Assembly: GCA_015178975.1 (NCBI GenBank)
Contig: WHVD01000153.1
Span: forward strand, 1-64,000
Direction: 5' to 3'
Length of the DNA: 64,000 bases
DNA from: Hysterangium stoloniferum
Taxonomy: Eukaryota > Basidiomycota > Agaricomycetes > Hysterangiales > Hysterangiaceae
Shown here: one piece after another, positions 1 through 41,140 of the stretch
How positions within the stretch are numbered: position 1 is the stretch's first letter
How the letters are laid out: each line of letters opens with the position of its first letter
Translations under genes and position numbers: made by a program
The notes under the pieces: generated by a model
Databases searched by the model: none
What the model saw: only the letters and a program-made list of their open reading frames with translations
What the model was told of the DNA's origin: nothing

Positions 1-702
1 GGACCTAAATATTTTTCAGCAAGCTTCTTTGATGGACGGGTAGTCCAGAAGAATTGAGCTTTGACATAAACACGGTCGCCAATCTTGAAGTTGGGTGGCG
101 GGATCCGGTGTTTGTCCGCTGAATGTTGGTATTGCTCTTGGGCGGACAATATTGCAGTCCGGAGTTCCTCGTGGAGCTCGTGGAGGTCCGTGGTGAACTC
201 TTGAGCACGAACAGAGGCGGAGATTTCATTCTGGATGTACTGTAATGTTTGGATTATATCCTTTATTTGCAAAGAATGGGGAAACGCCAGTAGTGGCCGA
301 GGGTGCATTGTTGTAAGCAAACTCTCCAAGTGGTAACAAGGTTTTCCAATTGTCCTGTTGGTAGTTGCAATAAACACGGAGGTATTGTTCCAATGTCTGG
401 TTGACGCGTTCGGTTTGTCCGTCACCTTCCGGGTGATGTCCGGATGTGAAATGTAATGTCATGTCCAAGGATTTTCTGAGGGATCTAAAGAAGTGAGACA
501 CGAACTCTGATCCTCGATCGGAAGTCATGTGGGACGGAACTCCGTGCTTGGAAAATATGTGGATAATGAAAAGTTCCGCTAACTGCACGGACGTAATTGT
601 ATCATAAGTAGGGATGAATATACCTTGTTTTGAGAATCTGTCAACAACGACTAGAATAGCAGAAAAGCCTTCAGAATCCGGTAGGTGTTCAATGAAATCC
701 AT
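1..702 (-). pseudogene. Gypsy copy 1 integrase catalytic core and C-terminal part
   Basis: This is integrase, which inserts the element DNA into the genome. The frame from 702 to 226 shows the DDE triad: VVDRFSKQ (first Asp), TSDRGSEF (second Asp) and GQTERVNQTLEQYLR (Glu). Downstream of about 228 the conserved C-terminal region continues in another frame. It contains IPPPNFKIGDRVYV and the KKLAEKYLGP signature of gypsy integrases. The shift is explained by one extra T near 228. The protein runs off the left end of the window, so whether a chromodomain follows cannot be seen. Confidence 0.88.
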
Positions 703-2434
703 AGATATAGAATTCCATGGGTGTTCTGGTACCGGGGAGTTGTTTCAAAAGGCCGTATGGCTTGTGTCGCTGAGATTTCGAGCGGGGACAAGTAGTGCAA
801 GATTTACAATAGTGCTTAACGAATCCACGGAGTCCGGGCCAAGTATATTCTCTTCTTATTAATGATAGAGTTTTGTTGTACCCGAAATGTCCTGAGAGTG
901 GATGATCATGTTTGTATTGAAGGATCCTGAGGCGGAGGCCGTGGGAGTCCGGTACATAGATACGATCGTCAAGTCTAATGAAACCATGTTGATCAAGAGA
1001 CCACCGAGGTTGATCGGGGTCCACGGGATTGTCCAGATGAGCTTTAGTAACTAGGTCTAGCGGAATTGCCGATAGAATATCTTGATGTAACTTCTCGATA
1101 TCCATAATGATAATTCCACGGACAATGGGATTGACGAGGAAAGTTGCGCAGACCGATGCGGTAAGTTGTTGATTCGTGAAAATAGGTTTCAGGTTGTGCG
1201 GATTTACCGTTGCATAGTCATTGCTCCCCTCTTTAGGATAGACGTGCCATCGTCTAGTTAAAGCGTCGGGTTTGCCGCCGAGACGGCCGGGTCGAAAACA
1301 GATAATCATGTTGAAAGTGGAGAGATATTCAGACCAGCGGGCCTGCCGGCGGGTCAAGAGTTTTGTGGTAGAAAAGTATTCCAGGTTTTTGTGATCTGTT
1401 ACAACGTCAATAGGAGCTCCTGAACCTTCCAAATAGTGTCGCCACGCTTTGAAAGCTGAAAAGATTGCCAGAAGTTCTTTATCATGAACATCGTAGTTGA
1501 GCTCTGCTCCAGTAAAAGTCTGGGACAGAAAAGCCACGGGGTGGACTTCTCCGTCGGAGTCCTGGATAGACAAAATGGCTCCAAGCGCATAATCGGAGGC
1601 GTCCGTTTCAACGATGAGCGGGAAGTCTGGTTTCCAATGCGACAGAATAGGAGCTGTGGAAAAAGAATTTTTTAAAAGATTGAAAGCTTTTTGACACTTA
1701 TCGTTAAAGTTCCACAGAGTACCCTTACGCGTAAGATGGGTAAGGGGTACCGTGATGTCAGAATATCCACGGATAAAATGTCTATAAAAATTGGCAAAGC
1801 CGAGGAAGGATTGTATATCTTTAACTTTTCGGGGTTCGGGCCAATCTTTGATGACTTGCACTTTAGTTTCGTCCATGCGGAGTCCATCGGGTCCCATCAT
1901 GAAACCTAGGTATTCCACAGAGTCCGTGTCAAAAGTACATTTTTTACCATTTGCGAATAAACCATGTTGTCTGAGTCTCCGGAGAACTTCATGGACTTGT
2001 TTGTCGTGTTCCGCGGGATTCTCGGAGTAGATAAGAATGTCGTCCAAGTAAACAATGATGCATACATCGAGCATGTCGGAGAAAATGTCGTTGATAAAAC
2101 GCTGAAAAACAGACGGGGCATTAGTGAGTCCAAAAGGGATGACCAACCACTCGAAGGCCCCATAACGGGTTCTAAAAGTGGTTTTCCATTCGTCGCCCGC
2201 GGCAATCCGGACCAAATGATAGGTGTGCTTGAGATCTATTTTGGTGTAAATCCGGGCATTCCGCGGAGCATCGAGCAGGTCAGATATAAGTGGGAGTGGA
2301 TATTTGTCCTTTTTGGTGACAGCATTGAGTCCTCTAAAATCAACACATAGTCGAAGGGATCCATCCTTTTTTCTGACAAACAGAACAGGTGCTCCAAAAG
2401 GAGACTTTGAGCGTCGAATAAAACCTATGGACAA
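689..2434 (-). CDS. Gypsy copy 1 reverse transcriptase, RNase H and integrase zinc finger
   Basis: These are the core enzymes for converting element RNA into DNA. RT motifs appear in order: LCVDFRGLNAVT, then the catalytic YLDDILIYS near residue 130, then the thumb GFANFYRHFI. RNase H follows, with ETDASDYALGAIL, an ELLAI helix and VVTDHKNLEYF. The final part carries the integrase HHCC zinc-binding region (HPLSGH..., CKSCTTC). The reading frame is open further upstream to about 2745, so 2434 is not a true start. The protein was presumably made as part of a longer polyprotein. One extra base near 738 shifts the frame so that this ORF ends at 689 instead of running into the integrase core. Confidence 0.92.
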   Translation of the reverse strand: MSIGFIRRSKSPFGAPVLFVRKKDGSLRLCVDFRGLNAVTKKDKYPLPLISDLLDAPRNARIYTKIDLKHTYHLVRIAAGDEWKTTFRTRYGAFEWLVIPFGLTNAPSVFQRFINDIFSDMLDVCIIVYLDDILIYSENPAEHDKQVHEVLRRLRQHGLFANGKKCTFDTDSVEYLGFMMGPDGLRMDETKVQVIKDWPEPRKVKDIQSFLGFANFYRHFIRGYSDITVPLTHLTRKGTLWNFNDKCQKAFNLLKNSFSTAPILSHWKPDFPLIVETDASDYALGAILSIQDSDGEVHPVAFLSQTFTGAELNYDVHDKELLAIFSAFKAWRHYLEGSGAPIDVVTDHKNLEYFSTTKLLTRRQARWSEYLSTFNMIICFRPGRLGGKPDALTRRWHVYPKEGSNDYATVNPHNLKPIFTNQQLTASVCATFLVNPIVRGIIIMDIEKLHQDILSAIPLDLVTKAHLDNPVDPDQPRWSLDQHGFIRLDDRIYVPDSHGLRLRILQYKHDHPLSGHFGYNKTLSLIRREYTWPGLRGFVKHYCKSCTTCPRSKSQRHKPYGLLKQLPGTRTPMEFYIYGFH

Positions 2435-2752
2435 ATGTTCATCCAGGAAATCACGGATTGTGGATAGTTCCGTGGATGAGAGCGGGTAAATATGTCCTAG
2501 GGGTGGCTGGGCGCCATCTTCAAGATCGATTTTTAAGTCGTATTCTCTATGAGGCGGAAGCCGGTCAGCTTTTCGCTTGCTAAAAACATCCGCGAAGTCA
2601 TGGTATTTCTCCGGGACGCCTTCTAGGTCAGCGGCTTGCTCAGATTCGGATACTGGGGTTGAGAAACGTCCAGTTGCTTCATCAATTTTTAAGTTGATAG
2701 TGTGTACGCCTGGGACCCATCCATTTTTGAAGCCCTAATAAAAGCTGCAGCA

Positions 2753-3229
2753 TTAATCAGAGAAATGGACGGAGGTGCCGTGGGTTCCGGGGAAGCTGTA
2801 GGTGCCGTAGGGATCACAGGAGTCCTCGAGACTGCAGGTGCCGGGAAGCCATGGTGCCATGGAGGCCGAGACAGGCGCAGTTTCCTCGGTCGCCGCGGGA
2901 GTCCGGAATGTTATACTGTTAGCTATCCAGTCAATCAACGGATTGTAGCGGGTAAGCCAGTTATGTCCTAGAACCACCGAGCAACTTGAGTCTAACTGGG
3001 TCACATAGAAAGTGACCAATTGAGATGTTCCACAAGGGAAACTGATGGGTAAATCACAAGCTTGGGTAACAACCGAATTACTTGTGCCATCGAAGAGGCA
3101 GAGTCCGACGGGATTTATCGAATAAGTTGACAAAGAATTTTTTTGCGTGAATTTTGTATCTAAAAAACAATGAGTTGAGCCGGAATCTATGAGAGCTGAA
3201 AAAACGAATTTCGGGATCATATTAGACAT
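2753..3229 (-). CDS. Gypsy copy 1 aspartic protease region (frame broken before RT)
   Basis: This is the retroviral-type aspartyl protease that would cleave the polyprotein. The catalytic motif reads ALIDSGSTHCF near residue 12, followed by a glycine-containing flap region and the VVLGHNWLTRYNP segment typical of Ty3-like proteases. The last residues of this frame (after about 2790) no longer match the same region of the second gypsy copy. There, the protease tail runs on through PSIFLINAA into the RT linker. A one-base shift near 2780 therefore separates protease from RT here. The RT frame is open from about 2745 downward. Confidence 0.8.
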   Translation of the reverse strand: MSNMIPKFVFSALIDSGSTHCFLDTKFTQKNSLSTYSINPVGLCLFDGTSNSVVTQACDLPISFPCGTSQLVTFYVTQLDSSCSVVLGHNWLTRYNPLIDWIANSITFRTPAATEETAPVSASMAPWLPGTCSLEDSCDPYGTYSFPGTHGTSVHFSD

Positions 3230-3345
3230 AAGTTTAATGAAAAATGAATCAGAATGTGAAAGAGTGGATGCGTTGAGGCGAGTGAACTCTTGAATGCGCG
3301 GAGAGGCAACGCAACCCCTAACCCGCGCAGAGTCCGCGGGGTTGC

Positions 3346-4638
3346 TTACTCTTTTTTCGAATCAGCAGCTGGTTTATCCTTCGACGGGGTTTCCGTGGAG
3401 GCCTTGGCTGATCGACCCTTTGAAGAGTTTGCTTTTGCCAGTGGACATTCTGGGACTCGATGACCGGGCTTCCCGCACAAGAGACAGAAGTTGTTGTCCA
3501 TACGACGTTGTCTTTCTTGTGGAGTCAATTTGCCATCAGGTCCGAGTTTGCCTGAGAGGTCGGGTTTTCCGGCTTGCTTGCCGGACTGTTGACCCTTGTT
3601 GTTGTCCTTATTGTCCTTATTGTTGTTGTTGTTGTTTGAAGACTTTTTATCGTTCTTCTTGTCGGATTGCGTGGAGTTCTGGTTGCTGGTTGACGAATTG
3701 TTGTTATTGTTTTTATCCTTGGACTTGTTTACTTTGTCCACGGATGTCTCGCGGGCAACTTCTGCGCGACGTTCCCAATAATGTGCATCCGCGTTTTGAG
3801 CTTTGAGGCGCATACGGGACAGGGTTTTTGGCTTGCCATCTTCTCCTTTCGAGACTTTGTCTGTAAGGCGGGACGGCAGACCGGCGTAGAATTGGTGGCG
3901 GAGAGCGGGATCGCCCCACTGACAACGAGCTGCAAGATTATTGAATTGGACGATGTAGTCCGTGATGCGCTGCGTGTCCTTCATATGAAGATTTGTGAGA
4001 CTATTCTCGGCTTCTCCTGTTGGGTCATACGGGCCGAAGTTGGTTTCAAGCTCCTCAACAAACGCCTCCCAATTTTCAAGCCAGAGTGGCTCTTCCTCGG
4101 ATATTCCGCTAAAAGCCGGTTCGAACCATTTCAACGCGGATCCCGACAAATATGACAGTGCGTAATTGACTTTTCGGGAGTCCGTGGAGAATGCAGCGGC
4201 ACGATCACGGAAGTTGAAGCGACATTGCATGAGGAAAGTAGAGAGTTTGTTTGGGTTGGAACCCGTGAAGGGTTCCAGAGCATTGACTTTTGACCGTGGA
4301 GGTTCTTGTTCCTTTTTCTTTCGTTCTTCGAGCAGGTGCGTCATGAATTTATCTATGGTACCTGCTAAAAATTCAGAAGTAGAATCCCCCGAATACGGTC
4401 GTTGAACAGACGGAGGATTTTCAGGAGGGATTTCGACACCTTTGCCCTTGTCGGGGGCCACGGAATTGTCCTCACGCTCGGATTCGTCCAGGTCTTCCGG
4501 GACTTCTTCGATGCGGGTTTCTTCCATGGGTTCTGACTGGTTCGCAAGCGTCTGACTGGTATACAGAGTTAACGGGGAATGAAGAGTCAACGGTCCAGGT
4601 ATTGATGACTGTGCGCGTGTACTTCTTCTTGGTGGCAT
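3346..4638 (-). CDS. Gag polyprotein of gypsy copy 1 (430 aa)
   Basis: This is the structural capsid/nucleocapsid protein of the retrotransposon, which packages element RNA in cytoplasmic particles. The N-terminal 70 residues are acidic and low complexity. The middle, about residues 105-280, is the Ty3-type retrotransposon gag domain (a TFLMQCRFNF-like start and an LKWFEP motif). An Asn/Lys/Ser-rich linker follows. Near residue 385 there is one CCHC zinc knuckle, C-x2-C-x4-H-x4-C, reading CLLCGKPGHRVPEC. The ATG at 4638 lies 36 bases inside the 5' LTR boundary and is the first ATG of the internal region. The frame is open throughout. Gag and the protease frame are separate and about 115 bases apart. 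Confidence 0.92.
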   Translation of the reverse strand: MPPRRSTRAQSSIPGPLTLHSPLTLYTSQTLANQSEPMEETRIEEVPEDLDESEREDNSVAPDKGKGVEIPPENPPSVQRPYSGDSTSEFLAGTIDKFMTHLLEERKKKEQEPPRSKVNALEPFTGSNPNKLSTFLMQCRFNFRDRAAAFSTDSRKVNYALSYLSGSALKWFEPAFSGISEEEPLWLENWEAFVEELETNFGPYDPTGEAENSLTNLHMKDTQRITDYIVQFNNLAARCQWGDPALRHQFYAGLPSRLTDKVSKGEDGKPKTLSRMRLKAQNADAHYWERRAEVARETSVDKVNKSKDKNNNNNSSTSNQNSTQSDKKNDKKSSNNNNNNKDNKDNNKGQQSGKQAGKPDLSGKLGPDGKLTPQERQRRMDNNFCLLCGKPGHRVPECPLAKANSSKGRSAKASTETPSKDKPAADSKKE

Positions 4639-4661
4639 AATGAAAACAATCTGCGAGTATT

Positions 4662-11410: not shown

Positions 11411-11899
11411 TATAAGTTTTTCGTGTAAACCTAGAACCACGTCATTTAGAAGTTATATTTTGGACTCAAATAGGTTTATTTGAGAATCATTATTACTCAA
11501 TGAAGGACTAAAATTAAGGATGTGCCAATTAAAGTAGTGCACAAGATATATTTCACCAGGAAATTGTACACTGGATGTAATATTTATCATGTTTTGAAAA
11601 AAGAAACATGTCGCGGCACTAGCGCGGCACTTTCCTATAGCCCGCTTACCCTCATGTTTATAAAAACTTAAACTCTATTGCAAGCTCCTCAGTCGCCTTC
11701 CTGCTACCTTAGTACAGCGACTAAGGTGAGTGCTTCCATAGCATACGTGATGAACTCATGTAGATTAGTTCGGGCATTGTCTGCCCTCGTTTTAGTTTTG
11801 TCATGTCTTCGCAGTATGCACAAGACCTTAGCTACGCTGAATCACAGACACCGTTTGTCTCAGGTATAAAATCAGAGTTTACACTTATTCTAGACTGAG

Positions 11900-13472
11900 G
11901 CACTCAAACAGAGGAACAAAGAACAACCAATCGTCAACCTTCGCCTACTAAGAATCTCTCAAGTCCCACCGAGACAGTATCCAGTGGCGATAATGGCTTA
12001 GAAAGCGAAGACGATAGCCCTTATAGCAAGCATGTTCAATCGTATTCAACCATATGGTCATTATATCTGAAGGAAAGGGGAATAGAGGACAAAGAAGTTG
12101 CCAACTCATTGAAAGTTGGTGTTGACGATGTTCCCTTATTTGTATGGTTGAATATGTTCTCCTTTATTTCATATTCAATTCATAGTTTCACAGGGGGCCT
12201 TGTTTGGGGGGGTTATTACCGCTTTCCTGATCGAAAGTAGGAAGGATTTACAGGTAGGTCCTGTTCAGGAAATCCTTTAGGCGCTCCGAATTTATCTCGC
12301 TCCACTACCTCAGCCTTTTCAACTCTCCGGGTCATTAGTCTCGCTCTGACTCTCTTCAGTGCGCTTTGTGCTCTACTTGGAAGGGGATGGCTGGCGAGTT
12401 ATTTTCCTATATCACTCGGAAGTCGCTCAAGTGATGCATGCCAACATCTCCTTCGTGCTAAGAGAGCACAGCAATGGCGCCTCGAGTCTGTTGTTACTGG
12501 AATCCCGGCGCGCTTTTGCTTCAACTAGCTCTCTTGCTTTTCTCTGTAGGTTTCGTCTTATCCACATGGAATAACAGCGTAGCCTTGGGCCTTCTTATGC
12601 TTGTTTTCACCATATTTGTATTTGCTCTATATATGCTCAGCACCCTATTGCCCTTGTTCTCCCCGGGCAGTCCATTTCAGACACCGATGTCACAATTTTT
12701 TCTAGCCGTCTCTACCAACGCAAAGTATGAGGCGTCCACATCAGACTACTGGGGGTCTTTTTCACCGACAAGGATGTATACATTTAAAATCTCTGATTGG
12801 GTAGATCGCCTTTCTGGGTTCTTGGTCGAAACGCATCGCAAGCCTCAACGGGCCGAACTTGAAGCTGATGTCCTGGCATGGGTGATTGCAATATCCACAT
12901 CGGCGGAGGCAGTTAACGAGGCACTGAGGGCTGTAGCAGGTGCTAAACAATCTGAAAAGTTGCGGATTGCCTTATGTCAACGACCAGTCACGGAGAAATT
13001 ATGCAAAATTCTGGAGAACTGCTTTCACCTCACCGCGAGCGTCGTCACTGTACGTGATGCACCGCTTGCGGAAGTTTGTCTCCTTGCAATGTCACGAGTC
13101 CTATCGCCGCGAACAGACAATCTCGTGGACAAAGAGTACCTTGCGCCCTTCAAAACACTCCTACATGTTGAGAGACCTATACATCGGTTAGACAGTTTAG
13201 ATCCTTGCGTGAAGACGTTGGGATGGGCGGTTCATATTGGTATTTGGATAAACATGGATGATGACGGCCTAGAGGTGCCGACAGGCCCACAGATTCAAGC
13301 GGTGGCCACAATGGGTGCAGCACCATATGAGCGGAGGACATTGATGACGGCGGCTATCGATGGAGCATTGTCACAAAAGAAGGGCTTACGTGCAACCTGC
13401 GAAGAGTTAATTATGGGATATTGGGATCTTAGTAGGGGCTTGTTCGATGGCTTCGGCAAAGAAACTGATTGA
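11900..13472 (+). pseudogene. DUF6535-like multi-pass membrane protein gene, frame-broken
   Basis: DUF6535 proteins are basidiomycete membrane proteins of unknown function. An exon ending at 12141 carries the typical start (IWSLYLKERG...). A 52-bp intron (12142-12193) precedes GALFGGVITAFLIESRKDLQ, the first membrane helix and its DLQ end. From about 12290 the frame gives LALTLFSALCALLGRGW, then QQWRLESVVTGIP. At about 12510 a shift is needed to continue into ALLLQLALLLFSVGF and two further membrane helices. From there the 12474-13472 frame is open through an AELEADVLAW segment characteristic of this family, and ends in TGA TGA at 13470. The frameshift, the double stop and an unclear second intron argue for a pseudogene. 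The start codon is unresolved. A TTATAAAA box lies at about 11658. Confidence 0.6.
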
Positions 13473-13572
13473 TGAGCGGATTGCCGGAGAATGCTCAAAG
13501 AAAGGGATTACATAGCAGGTAAAGTGGGCGTTTACTATTAGTTAAAATATGCATAACTAATGTATTGTCCCG

Positions 13573-16500
13573 ACGGGAAAAGAAAAAGATTGGATTAAAA
13601 AAGCGGTTGAAAAAGCAGGTTTTTCTGTAGAACGATTATTATTGGAGTGTGGTAAGAAAATACCAAGTGGAGTAGGGGTACGATATAATGGGCACGAATA
13701 TTCAGCTAGACTTCCAACTGGCATCGTTGGTGCCATTCCCAGAATTGTTGGGCTGTTGAAGGACTCCGACAATAACGTTCGGGCAATGACAGGATCGGCC
13801 CTGGTGAAGCTTTCAGAGCAAGGTACGATGTGTGATAATGGGATGGAAATCGAGGCGAGGTTTGACCATAGCTGAATGTCAAGTGGCCATTGCGGATGTC
13901 ATTCCTGACATTGTTGCACTGATGAAGGACGCTGACAATTCCGTTCGATTAAGCACAGTATCGGCCCTGGTGAAGTTTTCAGAACAAGGTGCGGTGTGTG
14001 ATAATGGGATAAGAATCTAGTTGACATTTGACAACAGCCAATTTTCGAGCGGCCATTACGGGTGTCATTCCCGACATTGTTGCACAGTTGAATGACTGTG
14101 ACTATGACGTTTATTCAACCACAGTATCGGCCCTGCAGAAGTTTTCAGAGCAATGTGCGATGTGTAGTAATGGGATGGGAATCTAGCTGACATTTGACCT
14201 CAGCCGAATTTCGAGCCTCCATTGCGGGTGTCATTCCTGACATTGTTTTATGGTTGAATGACTCTGACAATTACGTTCGATTAAGCGGAGTATCAATGCT
14301 GGTAAAGTTTTCAAAGAAAGGTGCGGTGTGTGGTAATTGAATGGGAATCTAGCAGACATTTGACCACAGCCGAATTTCGAGCGGCCATTGCGGGTGTCAT
14401 TCACAACATCGTTGCATTATTGAAGGACACGAACGATGACGTTCGATCAAGTACACTATTGGCCCTGGAGAAGTTTTCGGCGCAAGGTGCGGTGTGTATT
14501 AATCGGATAGGAATCCAGCCGATATTTGACGACAGCCGAGTTGCAAGCGACCATTGCGGGTGTTATTCCCAAAATTATTGCACTGTTGAAAGACTCTGAC
14601 AATTATGTTCGTTTAAGCGGAGTACTCACCCTGGGGAAGCTTTCAGAGGAAGGTGTGGTGTGTGGTGTGTGGTAATTGGATGGAAATCCAGTTGACATTT
14701 GATCACAGTCAAATTTCGAGCCGCCATTGCTCCTGCCATTCCTGACATCATCGCACTGTTGACGCACTCTAATAATAACATTCGATTAAGCGGAGTATCA
14801 ACACTGGTGAAGTTTTTAGAGCAAGGTGCGGTGTGGTAATGGGATGGGAATCCAGCTGAGATTTGACCATAGTCGATTTTCGAGCCACCATTGCCTCCGC
14901 CATTCCCGACATTGTTGCACTGTTGAAGGACTCTAACAATAAGGTTCGATTGAGCGGAGTATCGGCCCTGGTGAAGTTGTCGGAGCAAGGTGCGGTGTGT
15001 GAGAATGGGATGGGAATCTAGCTGACATTTGACCGCAGCCGAAGTTCGAGCGGCCATTGCGGGTGTCATTCACGACATTGCTGCACTTTTGAAGGATTCT
15101 GACAATTCCGTTCGATCAAGCACAGTATCAGCCCAGGTGAACCTTTCAGAGCACGGTGCGGTATCTGAGAATGAGATGAGAATGCAGCTGACATTTGCCC
15201 AAAGCAAAATTTCGAGCGGCCATTGCGAATGTCATTCCCGAAATTGTTGCACTGTTGAAAGACTCTGACAATTACTTTCGATTAAGCGGAATATCGACCC
15301 TGGTGAAGCTTTCAGAGTAAGGTGCGGTGTGCGATAATGGGATGGGAATCTAGCTGACATCTGACCACAGTCGAATTTCGGGCGGCCATTGCGGGTGTCA
15401 TTCCCGACATTGTTGCACTGTTGAAGGACTGTCACAATTACGTTCGATTAAGTGGAGTATGCACCCTGGTGAAGTTTTCAGAGCCAGGTGCGGTGTTTGG
15501 TGATGGGATTGGAATCCAGCTGACACTTGACCACAGTGGAATTTCGAGCGGCCATTGCGGGTGTCACTCACGACATTGTTGCGCTTTTAAAGGACTCTGA
15601 CAATTCCGTTCGATCAAGCACAGTGTTGGCCCTGGTGAACCTTTCAGAGCACGGTGCGGTGTGTGATAATGGGATGGGAATCTAGCTGACATTTGGGGCC
15701 CTGTCGAACTTTCCAGAGCAAGGTGCGGTGTGTGGTAATAGAATGGGAAGCCAGCTGACATGTGACCACAGCCGAATTTCAAGCGGCCATTGCGAATGTC
15801 ATTCCCGAAATCGTTGCACTGTTGAAAGACTCTGACAATTACTTTCGATTAAGCGGAATATCGACCCTGGTGAAGTTTTCAGAGCAAGGTGCGGTATGTG
15901 GCAATTGGGATGGGAATCCAGCTGACATTTGACCACAGCCGAATTTCGGGCGGCCATTGCGGATGTCATTCCTGACATTGTTGCACTGTTGAAGTACTCT
16001 GACAATGACATCCGATCAAGCACAGTATCCGCCCTGGTGAAATTTTCATGGCAAGGTGCGGTACGGGATAATGGGATGGGAATCCAGCTGACATTTCACC
16101 ACAGCCGAATTTCGAGCGACCATTGCGGGTGTCATTCCCGACATTGTTTCACTATTGAAGGACTCTCACTATGACGTTCGATCAAGCACAGTATCCGCGC
16201 TGGAGAACCTTTCAAAACAAGGTGCGGTGTGTGGTAATGATGGGAATCAAGCTGACATTTCACCACAGCCGACTTTCGAGCGACCATTGCGGGTATCATT
16301 CCCGACATTGTTGCACTGTTGAAGCACTCTCACCATGACGTTCGATCAAGCACTGTATCCGCCGTGGCAAAGTTTTCAGAGCAAGGTGTGGTGTGGGGTA
16401 ATGTAATGGCAATCCAGCTGACATTTGACCACAGTCGATTTTCGAGCCGCGATTGTGTTTGTCATTCCCGACATTGTTGCACTTTTGGAAGACACATATT

Positions 16501-16899
16501 TACAAAGTCACACACAAGTTCTCGATCTGCTCGTTCAGCTAGCAGCCCATGGTGTGTGCCTTGACACGCAAGTCAACACCTTCCCCTCACCAATGTTTTC
16601 AAAGATTGCCTTCGTGGAGCTATTATTGGGTGTAACTTAGAACATCACTGTATATCCCTGGTTGAGGTCACTAATGACGAAGCTGTTTTAACTGGTGGAA
16701 ATTTGTTTGTAGCTTTTTCTCAATATGGTAAGCTTAAATTCTTTCCACCATTGACTCCTTTTACCGTCTTGCAGGTTACTTTACCAATATTAAGCTGCGG
16801 ATGGTCCTCTGTGCATTTCGCCACTTCTATATACCTGGATCACCTCTGCAACATTGTGGTACGTTGGTTGAGATCCTCTTGAAATCTAGTAAGAGTTGA
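13573..16899 (+). CDS. Tandem HEAT/ARM-repeat gene with one exon per repeat
   Basis: This is a spliced gene whose product is a helical-repeat protein, presumably a binding scaffold; its partner is unknown. The first exon with clear coding runs to 13822. It is followed by 16 exons of exactly 117 bp (39 codons, phase 1), starting at 13872, 14038, 14204, 14370, 14536, 14709, 14873, 15039, 15205, 15371, 15537, 15772, 15939, 16105, 16269 and 16435. The introns between them are 47-56 bp, plus one of 118 bp. Each unit reads close to AEFRAAIAGVIPDIVALLKD, then SDNYVRLSTVSALVKFSEQ. A tail follows from exons 16605-16727 and 16775-16899 (TGA). All junctions are phase-consistent. One unit (15205-15321) ends in an in-frame TAA (15318-15320) where the others have CAA. 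The 5' end is unresolved; it may continue from the DUF6535 gene upstream. Confidence 0.72.
13872..16551 (+). repeat. 166-bp tandem exon+intron array (16 units)
   Basis: Units of about 166 bp consist of a 117-bp exon plus a 49-bp intron. The introns start GTGCGGTGTGTG, contain the branch-like CTGAC and end in CACAG. Because 166 is not a multiple of three, an unspliced read changes frame each unit. This is why only short ORFs appear. Units starting at 15039/15205 and at 15537/15772 resemble each other more than their neighbours. One unit between 15654 and 15771 has lost most of its exon. Confidence 0.88.
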
Positions 16900-20479: not shown

Positions 20480-21647
20480 TGTTAAGGGTGCATACATGGA
20501 GGGTTTCCAGAGAAACCTGTGGGAAATCCAGTAGGACTTGGCTTCAGCTTATAGGCTGTGCCCTCGTGAGATCGTGTTGTCCAATTTCAAATGGGCGGAC
20601 AGGAATCCCAGGGAGTCCGGGCGGGGTTTGTGGGTTGAAAGGTCATGGGTTGAGAGGTCATGGGTTGAGAGGTCATGGGTTGAGAGGTCATGGGTTGAGA
20701 GGTCATGGGTTGAGAGGTCATGGGTTGAGAGGTCATGGGTTGAGAGGTCATGGGTTGAGAGGTCATGGGTTGAGAGGTCATGGGTTGAGAGGTCATGGGT
20801 TGAGAGGTCATGGGTTGAGAGGTCATGGGTTGAGAGGTCATGGGTTGAGAGGTCATGGGTTGAGAGGTCATGGGTTGAGAGGTCATGGGTTGAGAGGTCA
20901 TGGGTTGAGAGGTCATGGGTTGAGAGGTCATGGGTTGAGAGGTCATGGGTTGAGAGGTCATGGGTTGAGAGGTCATGGGTTGAGAGGTCATGGGTCAAGA
21001 GGTCAGGGATTCGAGATAGATAAGTTGGAAATTGAGTGATAGATGCATCAGAGCCTGTGGGCTCTGACTAGTGAGAGCAGTGTAATTCAAAGAGGAGTTT
21101 AGAGTGGAAAATATACTAAGATTACTGGGGAGAATCTAAGCTGATTTTCTGACTGGATTGTATGTACAACATCTGCCAGACTATATAGACTGTGGAATGA
21201 ATAATATACTAAATCCAGTAATAATGAAAACAAAACTAACAAACATAAAATGAGATAAGTAAACACCAAACTTGGTGTTAGGAATGGGACGGAATGGAAG
21301 TGGAGTCTGAATCGTGACAGGTCATAAAACCATAACAGGAACAGAGTGGAAGTGGAGTCTGAATCGTGACAGGTCATTTGACTATAATGGGAATGGGGCT
21401 CAGTTAGAGGGATAATGGGTTTTCCGAGTGGGATCTGGTGACTGATGCGTGGGACAGAGTCGGACATAGACAGGGACAGAGTCTGGCGGGTATTCCATGA
21501 CTGATACATGAAGTAACAAAGTCGAATGTGGACAAGTCTGACATATGGAGTCTGGTGGGTATTCCGGTGAACTGACAATTGGTGCGTATAGGGCACGGGT
21601 GCATATAAGTTAGTGCCTGGAGTCTGGCAGGAATTCTGGTCATAACA
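20480..21647 (-). repeat. Gypsy-family LTR expanded by a minisatellite (1168 bp)
   Basis: On the minus strand it starts TGTTATGACCAG at 21647 and ends CCCTTAACA at 20480. Its middle and ends match the 4675-5513 LTR. It is longer because of the 15-bp repeat at 20631-21005. No convincing target duplication is seen (AGTGG against AGCAG). Confidence 0.85.
20631..21005. repeat. 15-bp minisatellite, about 24 copies, inside an LTR
   Basis: The unit GGTCATGGGTTGAGA is repeated almost perfectly. The related LTR of gypsy copy 1 has only a few diverged versions of the same unit (near 4810-4890), so the array grew after insertion. Because 15 is a multiple of 3 and the unit has no stop in several frames, long spurious ORFs appear on both strands. 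Confidence 0.97.
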
Positions 21648-25450: not shown

Positions 25451-27060
25451 GTTATGACCCAGAACCCATCAGACTCTGCCCTTTCCCAGCTAGCATCTCC
25501 AAGTGTCATTGGTCATTTCCTGATCTGGACTCCCAGCATTTGTTCTATATACATCTTTAATCCATGGCCCAACCTTCACTCAATCATCCCTGTCAACCCT
25601 TGTCACTTCTCTATGCCAATGTTCCAACCTGACCAGAACCTGTGGCTCTCTCAGAAATATGCACACTTAATCATTATAGTGTTAGGATCCATTTCTGGAT
25701 AGTATCAGATATCCATGGATATTCTGACTCCCTTTGTTCCACATTCAGTAACTGACTGGTTGACAGATGTTCATTTGTTTGTTTATTGTTCTTGCCCTTA
25801 TTTCCTGATCTGTCCCCATCCTTGTTTCCTCATTTATCTGACTCATTATTATATGCTTAGTTTGGAAACAGTTCCAAATAGGTTTTATTATACTCCCAGA
25901 CTTGTAGCACAATTATTGGAACATCTATATAGTCTTCCATAGTCATGTACTTACCCCTCAGTTTTAATCTTGACTTAGTCTCAAATTAGTTTGTATCTCA
26001 ACTTAGTCTTGACTTAGTTTCTTATCCCTTCCGTCTTTCTGTACACTCAATATCTGGAACTCTCCGGACTCTGGACATCTGGAACTCCCCAGAACTCTGA
26101 GTATCTGTAAACACTCTGGCATATATCTGCCCTCTGAAATATGGACACTCGAGTGAGTGCACAAAGGCACAGCACATAAGCTGAAGCCAAGTCTATCTGT
26201 ACTCTGGTAATATTCTGATACTCCCCAGACTAATCCCCAGAAACTCCCAGACTAATCCCCAGAAACTCCCAGACTAATCCCCAGAAACTCCCAGACTAAT
26301 CCCCAGAAACTCCCAGACTAATCCCCAGAAACTCCCAGACTAATCCCCAGAAACTCCCAGACTAATCCCCAGAAACTCCCAGACTAATCCCCAGAAACTC
26401 CCAGACTAATCCCCAGAAACTCCCAGACTAATCCCCAGAAACTCCCAGACTAATCCCCAGAAACTCCCAGACTAATCCCCAGAAACTCCCAGACTAATCC
26501 CCAGAAACTCCCAGACTAATCCCCAGAAACTCCCAGACTAATCCCCAGAAACTCCCAGACTAATCCCCAGAAACTCCCAGACTAATCCCCAGAAACTCCC
26601 AGACTAATCCCCAGAAACTCCCAGACTAATCCCCAGAAACTCCCAGACTAATCCCCAGAAACTCCCAGACTAATCCCCAGAAACTCCCAGACTAATCCCC
26701 AGAAACTCCCAGACTAATCCCCAGAAACTCCCAGACTAATCCCCAGAAACTCCCAGACTAATCCCCAGAAACTCCCAGACTAATCCCCAGAAACTCCCAG
26801 ACTAATCCCCAGAAACTCCCAGACTAATCCCCAGAAACTCCCAGACTAATCCCCAGAAACTCCCAGACTAATCCTCTGGAACTCTGTGGACACATTCCAG
26901 GAAGTGTCTGGAATATCCACTGGAAATTCCACCCAGAGATCTGGAACTTAACATACATATAATATAGCCATTTGTATTGTGTTCCATATATGTACATTTT
27001 CAACAAGTCCCCCATGTACCTAACTCAAGACAAGCATACCCTGAATCTCAAAACCTAACA
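25451..27060 (+). repeat. LTR-like repeats enclosing a 22-bp minisatellite
   Basis: A TGTTATGACCC start at 25451 and a second TGTTAGGATCC start at 25679 run to CCTAACA at 27060. The terminal 100 bases match 22660-22753. The shared ATAAGCTGAAGCCAAG motif is at about 26175. No target duplication could be found, so boundaries are tentative. Confidence 0.5.
26226..26873. repeat. 22-bp minisatellite, about 29 perfect copies
   Basis: The unit ACTAATCCCCAGAAACTCCCAG is repeated without visible variation, implying very recent expansion or homogenisation. It is not a CRISPR array: there are no spacers. Confidence 0.97.
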
Positions 27061-31159: not shown

Positions 31160-32631
31160 ACTCGTCTATATAGACTACTTATACACTTGTGACAAGTTAG
31201 ACCGTTGTAAGTTCGTTACTAGGAAAAGACCTAATAACCTGCGTGCAACGGTCAAGTCTTTATGATGGTCACTAACACAGTCGTTCTTGAAACCAGTCTA
31301 TAACCAAACACACTCGGAGCGAGAGGCTAGAGATCGGACCTTGGATGACGTAAACGAAGATGATATCAAAAGGCTGACATAAGCCTAATGTCGAGGAGTG
31401 TAGAACTTCAACAATAAGAGACACCACAGTATCCCTTACTGGCCGTAGGAGTGAGACTGAGAGTAAGACTCAAGAGATTGTCCTTAAGAATGAGCTTTGA
31501 AATGAGATACAACGAAATTGCTTGTTCAATAGTGGGCAAAAGAGAGGCCCTTATATACATGAGGAAGCACAGGTCAAAACAAACATCTACAAACAACGAT
31601 ACAATAACGATGCAATATGGTGTGAGTCATCTCTGAGTCATCACAATAGGAGCGTTAGTAAAGCTGTGAACAATAATAGGGGGAGGCTGCGCTGAACAAT
31701 AGGAGAATGACAAACAAAAGATAGATCAGACATGTGATACGGATAAATGGGGAAACACAATAGAACAATAGGGGAAGTGAGTCAGACAATAGGGATGATG
31801 GAGTAATAGAAGTGATGGCTGATGAAACATCGATGATATGAGTCAGAAACACAAGAATCCCATGATAATGCGTCACCCTCAAATGCTATGCTTGATTTCG
31901 AAATCTTGACAATATTACCAATCGATGAACCGAGATTGGACGTATTGTGTTCCTAGTTTTGCAGTATAAGGAGGGGACACAATCAATCACCATTTTAGAA
32001 CCAGGTGGTGAGTAGGCTCCACAACCACGCAAGGAACACGAATCAATGATGACCTCGACGAGGCTCTACTTGACTTCCCTCTGGAACCGGGGTCATGAAT
32101 AACTTGGGTCCTCTGTGATCTCCTATTGGAGTGAACGTTGCCATGTAACAGATTCCTGATGACGGTGGGGAACAGTCCTGCTGGAACACTCGATCGAATC
32201 AATAGTGGAGGATTTCGGAGGAGCCATCATAGTGTTCTATACGAATGAAGACAGGATCGTCTGGAGCATATGGGAGTCGAATACCTTGTTGACGGAGGAA
32301 ACGATGGTATTTCTTGGAGGAGCATGAGTGAGCTGGTAGGGGCTTGGAAATGATGTCTGAGGATGAGGAGAAGCGAGATGTTATCGGCTGGAGTTCTATT
32401 TGGGAGTGAAGAGTCAGTTTTGAGTAGGAACTGAGGGTTACTTTGGAGGACGATGCAGTGTTGAACATGATGGAGTTTTGGTCATCTGTTTGATGAAACT
32501 GATTTGGCTGTGTAGAAGTCGTCTTGAGTGCCAAAGTATATATAAAAATTTGTGCTTGTGATGTGACTTGAAACTATTGCCATATTAGTCTCTTTCTGAT
32601 TGAACTCTCTACACCGTAACTCTTTTTTATA
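31160..32631. other. Copia long leader (about 1.5 kb) with antisense ORF 32534-32199
   Basis: There are no sense-strand gag sequences here. A 111-codon minus-strand frame reaches from 32534 to 32199 and continues in a shifted frame to 31987. Its product is not recognised. A TATATATAAAA box lies at 32537-32547, about 90 bases before the gag ATG and followed by pyrimidine-rich DNA, and could be an internal promoter. Confidence 0.45.
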
Positions 32632-34056
32632 ATGGCCACCCCTGCGACAGCCTCTGCAGATGAGCTTGCGCCCTCAATTACCGCACTTCGCACCAATCTC
32701 ACTTACTCTGGCCCTAAACTAGATAAACTTCAATCTAACTATCAAGCATGGCTTCGTGCCGCCACTCTATTCTTAACCTTAACTGGTTTCTACGGCTATG
32801 CCAAGGGCACAATCACTCAACCTGGTCCTGAGCACCCCTGTGCCCGAGCCAACTGGGACAGCAATAACTCTCTCACAGCTGCTCTCATTGCTTCCACCAT
32901 CGAATCAACCAAATGGGAATATATTGACTTGGATCTTGGTGCGAAATCCTGCTGGGATACCCTTATAGCCTGCCACAAAAGTGAGGGACCCATTCGTCAG
33001 GTTCAACTGCTCCAAACAGCCCTTCTCAGCCAATTCTCCCATGGTACTCCATTGCCTACAACAGCCGAAGCAATCTGTGCCTCCGTTGACCGTGCGTATG
33101 ACATGGGTGATATCTCACGGGATTTCTTCAAATGCATTGCCTTACTAAACACCTTGGGCATCAATTTTCAACACCTGCATTCTATCATTACCCATGACAT
33201 ATCCCAGTCCACTACAACAAAACCCTTCACTTCTGTACAACTCTGTTCTTACTTGGACAGTGAGCAGGCATTGATGACCTCCGATACCATTAAGCATTCC
33301 ACCACTGCTAACTCCATCGCTTTGACTGCATCCAAGTCTGACAGTCCACCTGTCTGCTCTAATTGTAAGAGACGCCACCACACTGTCGACTATTGTGTGG
33401 CACCTGGTGGTGGAATGGCTGGCAGAAGCATTGAGGAAACCAAACTCGCCAGACTCCGCGATCGGGGGGTTACACAGCCAAAATCTTCCCCCTCCACTCC
33501 TAACCCCGTTCCCATCTCAAAAATCCCTGTCCATGTGAAGGGCACTGATGGTCGCATGTACATTGCACAAATGAATCCTTCTGACTTATCCATTTTACAT
33601 ACTACTGCCCCGGATTTTGCTGGAATCGTTGCCCCTCCATCACACACTATCCCCTCGCCCCCACTTATGCTGGATACTGTTGAGTACGATGGCTGGATTG
33701 TCCTTGAGGAGGAGCTGCAAACTACCGTGGATTGGAACAAGCACAGTCAACCATCTCTCACCGTCCTGAGCACCTCTACTGTCCAACCATTATCACAAAC
33801 AAACCGAACTCTATTATCTACAGAGACTCACCCTTTTTGGTTGGATAGTGGTGCAACTATACACATATCACCTGATCAAACTGACTTCATCACCTTAAGA
33901 GCTGTCACACCTCGTTCTGTAAGAGGTTTAGGAGGATCATCTATATGGGCCATTGGAATAGGTGATATCAAAATACGTCTAGGCCGAGGATCCCACATCC
34001 TTCTTTGGGACATGCTTTACATCCCTGAAGCAGTCGTACGCTTAATCTCAGTTTGA
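32632..34056 (+). CDS. Copia Gag and protease (ends at premature TGA)
   Basis: This is the capsid part plus processing protease of the copia polyprotein. Residues about 25-230 form a copia-type Gag domain (NYQAWLRAATLFL, SCWDTLIACHKSEG, LLNTLG). A zinc knuckle CSNCKRRHHTVDYC (C-x2-C-x4-H-x4-C) lies near residue 245. The protease active site FWLDSGATIHIS is near residue 405, followed by VRGLGGSSIWAIG and the DMLYIPEAVVRLISV strand. A TGA at 34054 replaces what is normally a sense codon; the same frame continues CLTHNSNVIAHF into integrase. The start ATG follows a short pyrimidine-rich leader. Confidence 0.9.
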   Translation: MATPATASADELAPSITALRTNLTYSGPKLDKLQSNYQAWLRAATLFLTLTGFYGYAKGTITQPGPEHPCARANWDSNNSLTAALIASTIESTKWEYIDLDLGAKSCWDTLIACHKSEGPIRQVQLLQTALLSQFSHGTPLPTTAEAICASVDRAYDMGDISRDFFKCIALLNTLGINFQHLHSIITHDISQSTTTKPFTSVQLCSYLDSEQALMTSDTIKHSTTANSIALTASKSDSPPVCSNCKRRHHTVDYCVAPGGGMAGRSIEETKLARLRDRGVTQPKSSPSTPNPVPISKIPVHVKGTDGRMYIAQMNPSDLSILHTTAPDFAGIVAPPSHTIPSPPLMLDTVEYDGWIVLEEELQTTVDWNKHSQPSLTVLSTSTVQPLSQTNRTLLSTETHPFWLDSGATIHISPDQTDFITLRAVTPRSVRGLGGSSIWAIGIGDIKIRLGRGSHILLWDMLYIPEAVVRLISV

Positions 34057-35476
34057 TGCCTCACTCACAACTCCAACGTTATCGCACATTTTGATCATGA
34101 CTCTTGTTGGATCAGTACCAAGTCATCTAACTCCATAATTGCCCGTGGCTCCTTACTCCCACACAAAAACCTTTACTCATTGATGTTACAATCTGCACAA
34201 GTGGAACATACTCTCATCATGCAAAATCTACCCACTCTCGAGACTTGGCACCACCGCCTTGGGCATGCTAATTACAAATCTGTCACTGACATGCTCAACA
34301 ATGGCCTGATCAAAGGTGCACGACCAGCCTCAACTACTGCCCCCCCCCAAATGCAACTCATGTATCATTGGAAAGCAGACAAAGTCTCCTGTTCCAAAAA
34401 TACGTGAGGAGGGGTTAGGGCATAGGGGGACCAGGAGGCTTGAAAAAGTCTGGATAGATCTGTCTGGACCACACACTGCAACATCACGAATTGGAAATAA
34501 TTATATTATGAATATAGTTGATGATTTTACAAGCTACGTATGGACCATCCCTTTGAAACACAAAAGCGATGCCTTCCCTAACCTTCAAACATGGGAACGG
34601 GCTCGGGAAGTCGAGACAGGTCTCAAGGTTGGGGTATACTGCACTGATAATGGAGAACTCAAGAGTCATGAAATGTCAAACTGGTTAGCATTAAGGGGAA
34701 CAGAACAGCAGTTTACTGCACCCTATACATCGGCGCACATTGGGCGCGTTGAGCGAATGCATCGGACACTTATGGGAAAAGCAAGATCAATGTGTATCTA
34801 TGCTGGTCTACCTGCTTACTTATGGGATGAATTATACCTCACTGCAGCCCATCTTCACGTGAAAACTACCACTACTACCCTTCAAAACAAGACCCCATGG
34901 GAACTTTGGTACAGATGTCCCCCTGACTACTCTTACATGAAAGAGATCGGATGTCGTGCTTTCGTCCTCATTCAAAACAAAACAAACCCAAAAATATTTG
35001 AATGCTCTATCGAATGCATACTAGTTGGGTATGATGCGAAATCAAAATCATATTGATGCTATGATACAGTGACCCACCAAATCTATAGTCCTTATCACAT
35101 TCGTTTCCTAGAAAGTCATGATGGCCACCCTAAATCACCTTCATCTAGGACTGACACTCCCCTTACCACATCTCCATTGCCACTATCTTCTGGGTCTACT
35201 GCCGTCAGCTCTTCCATTGATGCCTACAATGAACCCCCACCACTCCCTATCATTTCAGAAGTGCCAGATGCATTACCTCCCCCCAATGAGCAACCTCTTC
35301 GCCGCTCCACGCGTACGACGGCTGGTATTCCTCCAGGGTCCAATAGACTCCAGAAATCCATTCAGGCATCGAAGGATAGTGCTGAATGCCTGCACCTTGA
35401 AAAATTAGTGCGTTCGCAAGCTATCATTAACTTGCCCGAACTATCCTCATCTCCTGAGATGCTCTTTTGTCCCTAA
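34057..35476 (+). pseudogene. Copia integrase and linker, interrupted
   Basis: Integrase of the copia pol is in pieces. The zinc-binding part has WHHRLGHANY and, after a frame change at the C-run 34342-34350, CNSCIIGKQTKSP. The catalytic core shows NIVDDFTSYVW (first Asp), VYCTDNGEL (second Asp) and RVERMHRTLMGKA (Glu). The GKAR-type C-terminus ends VGYDAKSKSY, followed by an in-frame TGA (35054). A Ser/Pro-rich linker to 35476 then ends in TAA. Two stops and one frameshift mean this copy cannot make integrase. Confidence 0.88.
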
Positions 35477-35527
35477 ACTCAGGATACAACTCCCCTAGCT
35501 TCAATCTCACTTTAGCAGCCATCTCCG

Positions 35528-37128
35528 ATGGCATTGGGATCGACCCACTCACTTGCAATGATGAGCCCAAAACTTGGGAGGAGGCATTATGCTCAGGGGA
35601 CGCAGAGTGGTGGTGGGCTGGTCCAAGATGAACTTGATTCCCTCAAAGCGATGGGAGTCTATAAATTAGTCCCTAGGTCCGAAGTCAAGGGTGCAAAATC
35701 AGAAAGGGCCCCATTTTCCGCATAAAAAGGGATGAACATGGCAATGCTGTCCGCTGGAAAGTCAGGCTTGTCTTTAAGGGTTTTGAGCAAATATATGGAA
35801 AGGATTATCATCAAACTACCTCACCTACTGCACGCATGGAGTCCTGGCGCATACTCCTCCACATCGCTGCCACTCTTGGATGGGATGCCCAACAAATTGA
35901 CATTAAGACCGCTTTTCTTTACGGTCTACTCCCAGATGACGAGATTCAGTTTATGGAACAACCTGAAGGTTTTGCTGAGCCTGGGAAACATGATTATGTC
36001 TGGATGATCTTATGTGGTCTATATGGCATGAAGCAGAGTGGACGTATCTGGAATCAAACTATGAATGAGCAAATGCTCACCTGGGGCTTTACCCAGCTTC
36101 CATGTGAACCTTGTCTCTATTATCGCCAAATGCCGACGGGCATTATTATTGTAGCCATCCATGTCGACGACTTCTTGTCCATCGCCAGCAACGCTGCTGA
36201 GAACGAATCTTTCAAGACTCAGATGCGTGCCATTTGGACTATCTCTGAGTTGGGTTCTGTCCGTTTTGTCATTGGTATAGCTGTTGAATTGGACCGACAC
36301 AACCATCTCGCCCTTCTTTCCCAATCAGCTCTGATTGACAAAATCATCCGCCAATTTGGTCAGACCCATGCTTCTATCATCTCCACCCCGATGGACCACA
36401 ACCTCAAGCTTCGTCGGACCGATCGCACATCTCTCCCCCAACCTAGCCTGGATGCCATCCTTAAACTACCCTACCAGTCCCTTGTTGGCTGCTTACTCTA
36501 TCTTGCTATTTCCACACGCCCAGACATTTCATATGCCGTTCAACAACTGTCTCAATACCTTGACAGCTACTCAACTCCCCACTGGACTGCCACCATTCGA
36601 GTTGTTCGATACTTAAAAGGCACTCATGATCTCCGACTATGCCTCAGGCGGTCCAACACCCTTTCTTTGATTGGGTATACTGACTCTGATTGGGCCAATT
36701 GTTTGGATACCCGTCACAGCGTCAGTGGCTATGCCTTCACCCTTGGCTCTGGTATTATTTCTTGGACTTCGAAAAAGCAAAAAACCGTTGCTGCTTCATC
36801 ATGTGAAGCTGAGTATGTAGCCGCCTTTGAGTCTGTCAAGGAAGGCACCTGGCTCCGTAGCCTTTTCCACAGTATTTCCATGCTTCCCCCTTCCCAAACC
36901 ACCATATTCTGTGATAATAATGCTGCCACTGCCCTCTCCGAGGATCCCCTCCTTCACTCCCGGGTCAAACATATTGACATTAAGTTCCATTTCCTCCGGG
37001 AATGTGTCCAGGCTGGGGATTTTTGTCTTTGCTACATCCATACGAAGGATAATTTAGCTGATATCTTCACGAAGGCTTTAGAACCGTCTCAATTTATCAA
37101 ACTACGAGGTTTTCTGGGTCTCAAATAG
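35528..37128 (+). CDS. Copia reverse transcriptase and RNase H (5' part frame-broken)
   Basis: RT begins in broken frames at 35528-35830 (DELDSLKAMGVYKLVPR, then RWKVRLVFKGF). From 35836 an open frame of 430 codons runs to 37128. It contains TAFLYGLLPDDEIQFMEQPEGF, YGMKQSGRIWN, the catalytic AIHVDDFLSIA (HVDD for YVDD), and TRPDISYAVQQLSQY. RNase H follows with TDSDWANCLDTRHSVSGYAF, SSCEAEYVA, FCDNNAATAL and HIDIKFHFLRE. This is the standard copia order, ending about 40 bases before the 3' LTR. Confidence 0.92.
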
Positions 37129-40354: not shown

Positions 40355-41140
40355 ACCTTTGTCTTCTTATATTGAAGTAGGTGCGCGTGGGAGAGGTTGT
40401 TCAAGGCCTGCCCTCAGATAGGGCGTGCTTTCTCTCACTGAGGAAAATCATTACTTATTTCTGCCGAAATCGGGAACCCGAACAGGGACAATGTCATCGC
40501 TTCGCCGCCAGTACCTCCTAGTAAGTTGTTTACCCCACTCTATATCGATGGCACTCGTATTTGATTTTGGAAGAGTGTACATCCAGCAAATTACCATTAA
40601 ATTGGCAGCGAAGCCCCTATGTGCAAGGGGTCTTATAACTTCCCTAGGTACGTTGTCTTACTCACACAAGAGACGCATTCGTAGGCCGTTGTTCCATCGC
40701 TCACGCCACGAGGAAGCCGTGATACTTCAATCACGGAACACTTAATTTCTAAATATAACGAGGACTATTTGCAATATTTAAACACCCGTAAGATTCCTTG
40801 TTTATTATCCGAAAAAAATCTTATTTGCTGAGCAAAAAAATCGCATTTATCTCGGCCTTTTCCTTGCCATCCTTAGCTGAAGTCTATTGCAGAGATCACC
40901 ATGATTGATAATCCATTGATACCGTAGTCTCAACGCGTGGTCAATATCACGTGACCCATGCTACCCGGGGTCCTCACCCGTTGGTTTCTCCCCGCCGTCG
41001 TCAGCAGGAACGACCTACTTCCGACCACCACCATAGGCTTCGCCCTTATACCTTACATTCCTTTAGGTTCGGCCTACGGTAAAACTCAGTATTCATCTAT
41101 AGAGAGGCATTCTAACATCGCTCTTTTCTCCACCCAGACA
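40355..41140. promoter_or_regulatory. Divergent intergenic region, DUF7704 / chitin synthase
   Basis: About 790 bases serve both promoters. In the chitin synthase frame a 61-codon open extension begins at 40958, upstream of the chosen start. It is not conserved in character (no myosin-like features), so I treat it as leader. Confidence 0.4.

Follow-up and report, generated by a model that had tools for sequence, protein, structure and literature searches.

A 64,000-nucleotide stretch of contig WHVD01000153.1 from Hysterangium stoloniferum (hereafter the window) carries on its forward strand a tandem array of exon-plus-intron units, each encoding one HEAT repeat. Judged from its sequence, this array has decayed and belongs to an extensive family of DUF6535-HEAT genes in H. 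stoloniferum, an ectomycorrhizal, truffle-like fungus of the Hysterangiales. Comparison of the units, within genes and between close paralogs, places the excess of amino acid replacement at codons 22, 23, and 27 of the 39-codon unit and, in close pairs, also at codons 34 and 30. The reading that we favor, with moderate confidence, is that the family encodes membrane-anchored recognition proteins diversified by exchange of exon units and by selection, in the manner of the repeat domains of NLR proteins, although the family itself appears to lie outside the NLRs.

The window array contains 17 HEAT-unit exons, each exactly 117 bp (39 codons, phase 1-1), spanning positions 13706-16551 of the forward strand.

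13706..15653, forward strand: first HEAT run, made up of 12 unit exons of 117 bp with an intron of 47-56 bp after each; units start at 13706, 13872, 14038, 14204, 14370, 14536, 14709, 14873, 15039, 15205, 15371, and 15537
15654..15722, forward strand: truncated unit of 69 bp between the 12th and 13th units
15772..16551, forward strand: second HEAT run of five 117-bp units, starting at 15772, 15939, 16105, 16269, and 16435

The original prediction described 16 consecutive 117-bp exons in phase 1; length and phase stand, while the count is 17 and the run is broken by the 69-bp fragment. The repeat period of about 166 bp that it proposed was recovered by Tandem Repeats Finder as a period of 166 in two blocks (13729-15695, 11.8 copies, score 2171; and 15698-16487, 4.8 copies, score 1032). 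All 17 units are preceded by AG and followed by GT, and 16 of them are free of stop codons. Introns between adjoining units are, as had been described, 47-56 bp long (mostly 49 bp) and nearly identical, with the pattern GTGCGG...CTGAC...CACAG, in which CTGAC is a branch-like motif. These near-identical introns were copied together with the exons, which bears out the earlier proposal that genomic exon-plus-intron units were duplicated. Since all exons are phase 1-1, gain or loss of units is frame-neutral. Because the introns hold stop codons, and one of 49 bp shifts the frame, translation through more than a few units would need splicing. The HEAT profile (PF02985) matches the first nine units, joined, at 1.1e-32 (109.4 bits) and the last five at 1.2e-15 (56.6 bits; cut-off 23.5 for both), in agreement with the HEAT product originally proposed.

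The family was sought in a genome of 111,116,353 bases in 554 contigs. The first protein search gave at least 274 matches, which is a lower bound because 150 of 2725 candidates were scored. Paralogs were studied in 20 stretches of 10 kb, picked from the best matches to the window units, and these contain 21 arrays besides that of the window. Eighteen of the 21 consist of two unit blocks around an insert, with a spacing of 636-657 bp between the blocks. Across all 22 arrays, window included, 493 unit matches of at least 8 bits were found; 426 of these have the form AG-117 bp-GT without a stop codon, as read from genomic sequence, and 12 have a GC donor with the other borders intact (in L014, L016, L018, L025, and L028). 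Six matches overlap a neighbor (five of these are insertion-bearing units matched twice), so that the true number of units is about 487. Every unit has intact borders and an open frame in L011 (29/29), L015 (25/25), L020 (28/28), and L027 (27/27); the stretch sampled at L011 covers part of its array, the upstream end lying outside, so this gene has at least 29 units. Three arrays (L012, L016, and L017) are heavily decayed. The longest arrays reach 33 units, a number present in one nearly intact array, and genes of the family have about 20 to 33 of these nearly identical unit exons.

Genome-wide, DUF6535 gives 75 matches in 68 loci, and 40 of the 75 sit in open frames of at least 430 aa. The interior segment that lies between the unit blocks gives 91 matches in 56 loci. 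Thirty-five of the 68 DUF6535 loci have an interior segment within 6 kb; the remaining loci may hold DUF6535 genes of another kind or fragments. With at most three mismatches, the genome has 1116 copies (495 + 621) of the intron's 3' half, against 0 copies for the reversed pattern. An annotated H. stoloniferum protein (P0079) holds a unit identical to one in L016 (contig C346). The species is named in work on the genomes of mycorrhizal fungi (PMC7550596). Two features of array layout were also noted. The interior segment at 4253-4790 of L019 and its homologues split the HEAT arrays, and the third unit of the L018, L021+, L024, L025, and L026 arrays carries an insertion of about 45-51 bp in mid-repeat, four of these five arrays being on contig C545.

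The architecture of a family member can be read in paralog L019, which was spliced by hand, with the open frame as a guide in picking introns, into a single frame of 1804 aa interrupted by more than 30 introns. Its N-terminus and DUF6535 domain are followed by some 330 aa and a linker, after which come 11 HEAT units, an interior of roughly 100 aa, a second set of 16 units, and the C-terminal part. Of the 27 units of L019, one measures 114 bp. The DUF6535 match is strong (E 1.9e-45, 155.4 bits, residues 73-236). By hydropathy, residues 91-109, 156-174, and 215-262 are hydrophobic; the third of these stretches is long enough for two helices, and the charge of the loops weakly suggests that the HEAT part faces the cytosol. 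Separate genes for the DUF6535 and HEAT parts, divided by TGA codons, were considered and rejected, because a short intron (donor GTAGGG, branch-like CTAAT) restores the frame between them in L019. The splicing model put forward here draws on the genomic sequence, on the 1804-aa open frame of L019, and on a homologue from Mycena with a matching period and junction.

That homologue, P0198 of Mycena albidolilacea (1679 aa), has a DUF6535 domain (8.7e-46) followed by 13 units, an insert, and 10 units. In the N-terminal part, 215 of 509 aligned positions are identical to L019. It shares with Hysterangium a period of mostly 39 aa and the junction SEQ-A-EFR, both known here from the protein. Variation in P0198 is highest at unit positions 23, 26, 22, and 21; three or four of its 23 units seem out of register, so entropy there is inflated. 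Homology between the Mycena and Hysterangium interior inserts was rejected, as BLASTP gave no alignment. More broadly, DUF6535 (PF20153) proteins of Agaricomycetes, including records named "armadillo-type protein" from Hysterangium and Mycena, share the N-terminal domain and the HEAT unit. The Hysterangium records of that name are at most 693 aa (among 120 of 154 matches, with lengths 0.55-1.75 times the query), and in searches admitting longer proteins no Hysterangium record was among the matches listed. Other arrangements of DUF6535 were seen in passing: it is fused to AAA in P0011 (Pleurotus pulmonarius) and to WW in P0070 (Paramarasmius palmivorus), which suggests a general N-terminal module. 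A Mycena venus protein recorded as alanyl-tRNA synthetase (P0199) has a DUF6535-like start (LLIFAGLFSAILTAFLIES) and HEAT-like repeats mostly 41 aa apart, and this record is perhaps mis-named.

Domains typical of NLRs were looked for with Pfam (E 0.01). Neither NACHT nor NB-ARC was found in the N-terminal 601 aa, interior 142 aa, or C-terminal 127 aa of L019, which are the segments outside its unit arrays; in the window, among the best 25 of 28 families listed for the first run of units and all 21 for the second; or in P0198, among the best 25 of 35 families. On the absence of a nucleotide-binding oligomerization domain (NOD) from the scanned L019 segments, NLR membership was rejected. The original prediction had likened the units to the recombining repeats of fungal NLR proteins with a possible role in recognition. 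This likeness gains support from replacement-biased divergence at a few codons, described below.

Close paralogs differ mostly by whole units, as expected of the frame-neutral change in copy number that had been foreseen. Six close pairs contain 11 gaps of at least 40 bp, nine of which are within 4 bp of whole 166-bp units:

L015/L027: 166 and 166 bp
L023/L025: 51, 498, and 164 bp
L018/L026: 162 bp
L021-/L026: 3105 and 166 bp
L024/L026: 162, 660, and 165 bp
L019/L027: none

The exceptions are the 51-bp gap, which is not a whole unit, and the 3105-bp gap, which is the cut end of a sampled stretch; the 660-bp gap adjoins a poorly aligned C-terminal end. Among the 390 units with a measurable intron, which were used for this and for the intron and exon divergence given below, 41% have their closest relative within their own array, compared with 5.3% when labels are shuffled, and lags of 1 and 2 are the commonest. 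For the other 59% the nearest unit is in another array, which suggests a further contribution from exchange across genes or from recent duplication of genes. Higher-order repeats, scored as runs of two or more unit pairs that share 95% identity or more at a constant lag, are present in five of the 22 arrays (L011, L014, L015, L019, and L027) and were rejected as the main mode of turnover.

Variation within the unit is uneven, with entropy peaks at positions 22 (3.45 bits), 23 (3.32), and 27 (2.57). For the selection tests, the 67 of 493 units failing the border or open-frame check were excluded, and three arrays with fewer than nine good units (L012, L016, and L022) were set aside, leaving 19 of 22 for pooled comparison of replacement (pN) and silent (pS) differences per site. 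In these 19 arrays, pN over pooled pS is 2.27 at codon 22, 1.79 at codon 23, and 1.76 at codon 27, with 95% intervals above 1 in each case. Outside codons 21-23, 26-28, 30, 33, and 34 the pattern is one of constraint (pN 0.150, pS 0.216), and pN exceeds pS in none of the 19 arrays. Introns within arrays differ less (0.129) than exons (0.177). The contrast is weaker in the window's own array, where pN is 0.34 at codons 22, 23, and 27 and 0.21 outside the nine codons, with an intron value of 0.19.

Collinear paralog pairs give the same picture. In all seven pairs, codons 22, 23, and 27 have a pN above the pS of the remaining codons, and in six of six close pairs hypervariable codons differ more than other exon bases. 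In L015/L027, for example, 24.4% of hypervariable codon bases differ, compared with 6.4% of other exon bases and 4.4% of the introns and interior. Four of the seven collinear pairs were used for codon ranking, for counts at fourfold sites, and for transition/transversion (ts/tv) ratios. Pooled, these rank codons 23, 22, 27, 34, and 30 as the five highest in pN, and a comparison of hypervariable replacement with silent differences in the rest gives a Fisher p of 4e-23, calculated from counts that are non-independent.

The codons so ranked largely coincide with those chosen by engineers of HEAT-type binders. The alphaRep library randomizes positions 18, 19, 22, 23, 26, and 30, according to the accessible part of its description (PMC3754942). 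No gap is needed near the variable sites to align the unit with alphaRep, whose numbering is 4 lower than that of the unit, so that codons 23, 22, 27, 34, and 30 become alphaRep 19, 18, 23, 30, and 26, five of the six randomized positions. With six randomized positions among 38, the chance that all of the top five codons would be among them is 6/501942. The alphaRep binders and the Hysterangium family are thus alike in varying at positions 18, 19, 23, 26, and 30 (same source, same part), whereas alphaRep was designed as a library and has a shorter repeat than the natural Hysterangium unit of 39 residues. Surface placement of the variable residues would follow from this alignment.

Several observations weigh against selection for recognition. 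Codons 8 (1.64) and 28 (1.38), which are outside the alphaRep set, also exceed pS across the 19 arrays; by raw replacement, codon 35, likewise not an alphaRep position, ranks fifth and codon 30 sixth, which leaves four of the top five in the set; and codon 26 (alphaRep 22) is slow in Hysterangium. Since the alphaRep set mimics natural HEAT-like variation, the match in position partly reflects structural tolerance. Silent differences are also raised inside the variable codons, where pooled pS, from a small number of sites, is 0.20, compared with 0.085 in the other codons. In two of the seven pairs pS at codons 22, 23, and 27 is higher than pN, and N/S within these three codons alone is about 1.1. 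The case for selection therefore rests on neighboring silent sites and introns. Recombination among units breaks the assumptions of pairwise counts, and the pairs share arrays. The 20 paralog loci, being the best matches to window units, are a non-random sample. The cytosolic topology is a weak inference from a charge rule, and the insert that splits P0198 at a similar place has no detectable BLASTP similarity to that of Hysterangium.

Raised synonymous differences at the variable codons, together with the clear recombination of units, are what would be seen if the hypervariable sites came from mutation bias or from gene-conversion import of divergent tracts, without selection. With a hotspot or imported tracts as the source, however, silent sites nearby should vary too. 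Divergence at fourfold sites is 0.079 in codons 24-26, below the average of 0.155 for all codons, and near that average (0.176) at codons 22, 23, and 27; across codons 24-26, 28, and 29 of the four collinear pairs, differences occur at 11 of 359 fourfold sites, compared with 104 of 1704 overall. A local mutation hotspot was rejected on the quietness of these surrounding sites. Transition mutation resembling repeat-induced point mutation was likewise rejected as the source, given a ts/tv of 0.65 at the variable codons, compared with 1.12 at other exon bases and 1.69 in introns. With introns also less diverged than exons, we regard an origin by mutation or conversion without selection as improbable. 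An alternative in which the proteins are structural scaffolds or trafficking proteins on a membrane, with unit number drifting by unequal crossing over and the variable residues forming a tolerant surface, fits the common use of HEAT arrays as scaffolds, the presence of PP2A-A chains among the best PDB sequence matches, and the resemblance of the alphaRep positions to natural variation (PMC3754942, accessible part). Mean pN at codons 22, 23, and 27 is nevertheless 0.454, compared with 0.155 at fourfold sites and 0.14 in introns, and the codons outside the nine are constrained. Replacement above the silent rate is not expected from relaxed constraint alone, and we consider the scaffold alternative unlikely, if the least so of those weighed here.

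That the window array is junk, a satellite-like repeat spread without protein function, might be argued from the broken state of the window copy, from the decay of L012, L016, and L017, and from fragments at many loci (89 clusters of places). Against this stand the four arrays in which every sampled unit is open, the readable 1804 aa of L019 across its many introns, the DUF6535 matches in long open frames, and the homologous protein in Mycena, so that this explanation seems highly improbable. A bolder form of the recognition reading, a non-NLR system of mushroom-forming fungi, has two levels of diversity, in which germ-line exchange of units among dozens of genes, with the near-identical introns as recombination tracts, is joined by frame-neutral skipping of any of up to 33 exons; if true, one genome would encode a very large set of HEAT binding surfaces, but we think this form quite unlikely.

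The mechanism that we propose for the favored reading, a membrane-anchored recognition family, is as follows. Exon-plus-intron units are gained and lost whole and would be exchanged within and between genes, with equal phase keeping the frame. The residues at codons 22, 23, and 27, joined by 34 and 30 in close pairs, would line the binding face of the HEAT solenoid, while DUF6535 would anchor the protein in a membrane and leave the solenoid in the cytosol. The family may then act as a repertoire for recognition, of self and non-self or of partners, renewed by unit exchange and diversifying selection.

Related designs are known from other repeat proteins. In Podospora HNWD genes, two codon pairs per WD repeat are positively selected and the repeats recombine (PMC2873952, in the sections available). 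NLRs of Podospora anserina carry ANK, TPR, or HEAT repeats, and one of them, Pa_6_7270 (sesB-like/NACHT/TPR(HEAT)), has 3 to 12 repeats across typed strains (PMC4986451, including its Table 4, in the sections available). As far as the same sections of both papers go, the Podospora HNWD, het-d, het-e, and other NLR genes resemble the Hysterangium family in their near-identical repeats, in gain and loss of whole repeats, in exchange within and between genes, and, if the replacement excess in Hysterangium reflects selection, in having few selected codons per repeat on the binding surface. They differ in having a NOD, whereas the Hysterangium family has a membrane-type DUF6535 domain and no NOD was found. 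The word "intron" is absent from the available Podospora texts, whereas in Hysterangium each repeat has its own exon and a copied intron. Strict exonic modularity, with loss of modules possible, is a trait shared with the human NLRP3-type LRR domain (PMC6642158, available text); the Hysterangium genes have one repeat per exon with equal phase 1-1, to which the present analysis adds introns that are nearly the same from unit to unit within a gene. Alternative splicing is reported for NLRP3 in the same text, whereas the Hysterangium family is known here from genomic sequence.

Fungal recognition genes are known mostly as NLRs, and the family described here would represent a similar evolutionary signature in a different type of protein. 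Its genetic design is simple and lets units be exchanged without loss of frame, and most of its natural variation affects residues that are randomized in engineered HEAT-type binders. In Agaricomycetes it is a candidate system for recognition of self and non-self or of partners, and it suggests a possible role for DUF6535. The family is recognition-like and repeat-diversified, lies outside the NLRs, and devotes one exon to each repeat. In the PMC literature, subscription papers and preprints being outside the search, no account of the family, its exon-unit structure, or its selection was found, and DUF6535 appeared in a single paper, solely as an expression-table entry.

The gene to which the window array belongs is longer than was first proposed. 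The original bounds of 13573..16899 do not hold, because the gene starts at about 11803 (first ATG), well upstream of 13573, and includes a DUF6535 domain. The profile PF20153 matches this copy at 12304-12507 with 32.1 bits (gathering threshold 23.9), covering just profile positions 89-157 of 177. Damage relative to L019 includes a stop codon, the loss of 28 bp at 12329, and the gain of 5 bp at 12506. Parts of the gene around and within the array are as follows:

11803..13431, forward strand: N-terminal remnant, including the DUF6535 membrane domain (DNA alignment to L019, 81%)
about 12142-12193, forward strand: putative intron in the N-terminal remnant
12278..12280, forward strand: in-frame TAG in the DUF6535 exon, by comparison with L019
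13432..13476, forward strand: putative intron GTAGGG...CTGAT...GATGAG, which takes out an apparent stop between the DUF6535 and HEAT parts
13519..13577, forward strand: putative intron with a lost acceptor before the linker exon (CAACAG in L019, CGACGG in the window)
13652..13705, forward strand: putative 54-bp intron before the first HEAT unit, GTAAGA...TTCAG, in position and length as in L019
15205..15321, forward strand: unit exon with a terminal in-frame stop, its last full codon being TAA (15318-15320)
16552..16890, forward strand: C-terminal exons, resembling L019 7388-7730 by eye, with approximate boundaries
about 16552-16605, forward strand: first intron of the C-terminal part, placed by eye against the L019 gene model

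The L019 counterpart of the intron at 13432-13476 is 48 bp (GTAGGG..GGGCAG), and one open frame is kept there. The last window unit is diverged (LLEDTYLQ...) and resembles the last unit of L019 and of several other paralogs. The interior insert is absent from the window copy, as the L019 interior matches only HEAT units in the window, and the genome-wide search with the interior segment listed no place on the window's contig. In the fragment at 15654-15722, 5' intron sequence runs directly into the last part of an exon, which leaves it 97 bp short of a full unit; several alignments between the window and L019 end at 15694-15695. This fragment is possibly the scar of a deletion that took out the interior insert. 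On its sequence, we take the window copy to be a pseudogene in decay whose array is still well kept.

Elsewhere in the window, two minisatellites are present. One has a 15-bp period (TGGGTTGAGAGGTCA) with 25 copies at 20631-21005 (99%) and is open on both strands as a short peptide repeat; the other has a 22-bp period with 29.6 copies at 26224-26874 (100% matches). Inspection of translations by eye identified open reading frames resembling Ty3/gypsy-type and Ty1/copia-type retrotransposons at 226-4659 on the reverse strand and 32620-37128 on the forward strand, and open reading frames resembling a chitin synthase gene with a myosin motor at 40955-47348 on the forward strand.

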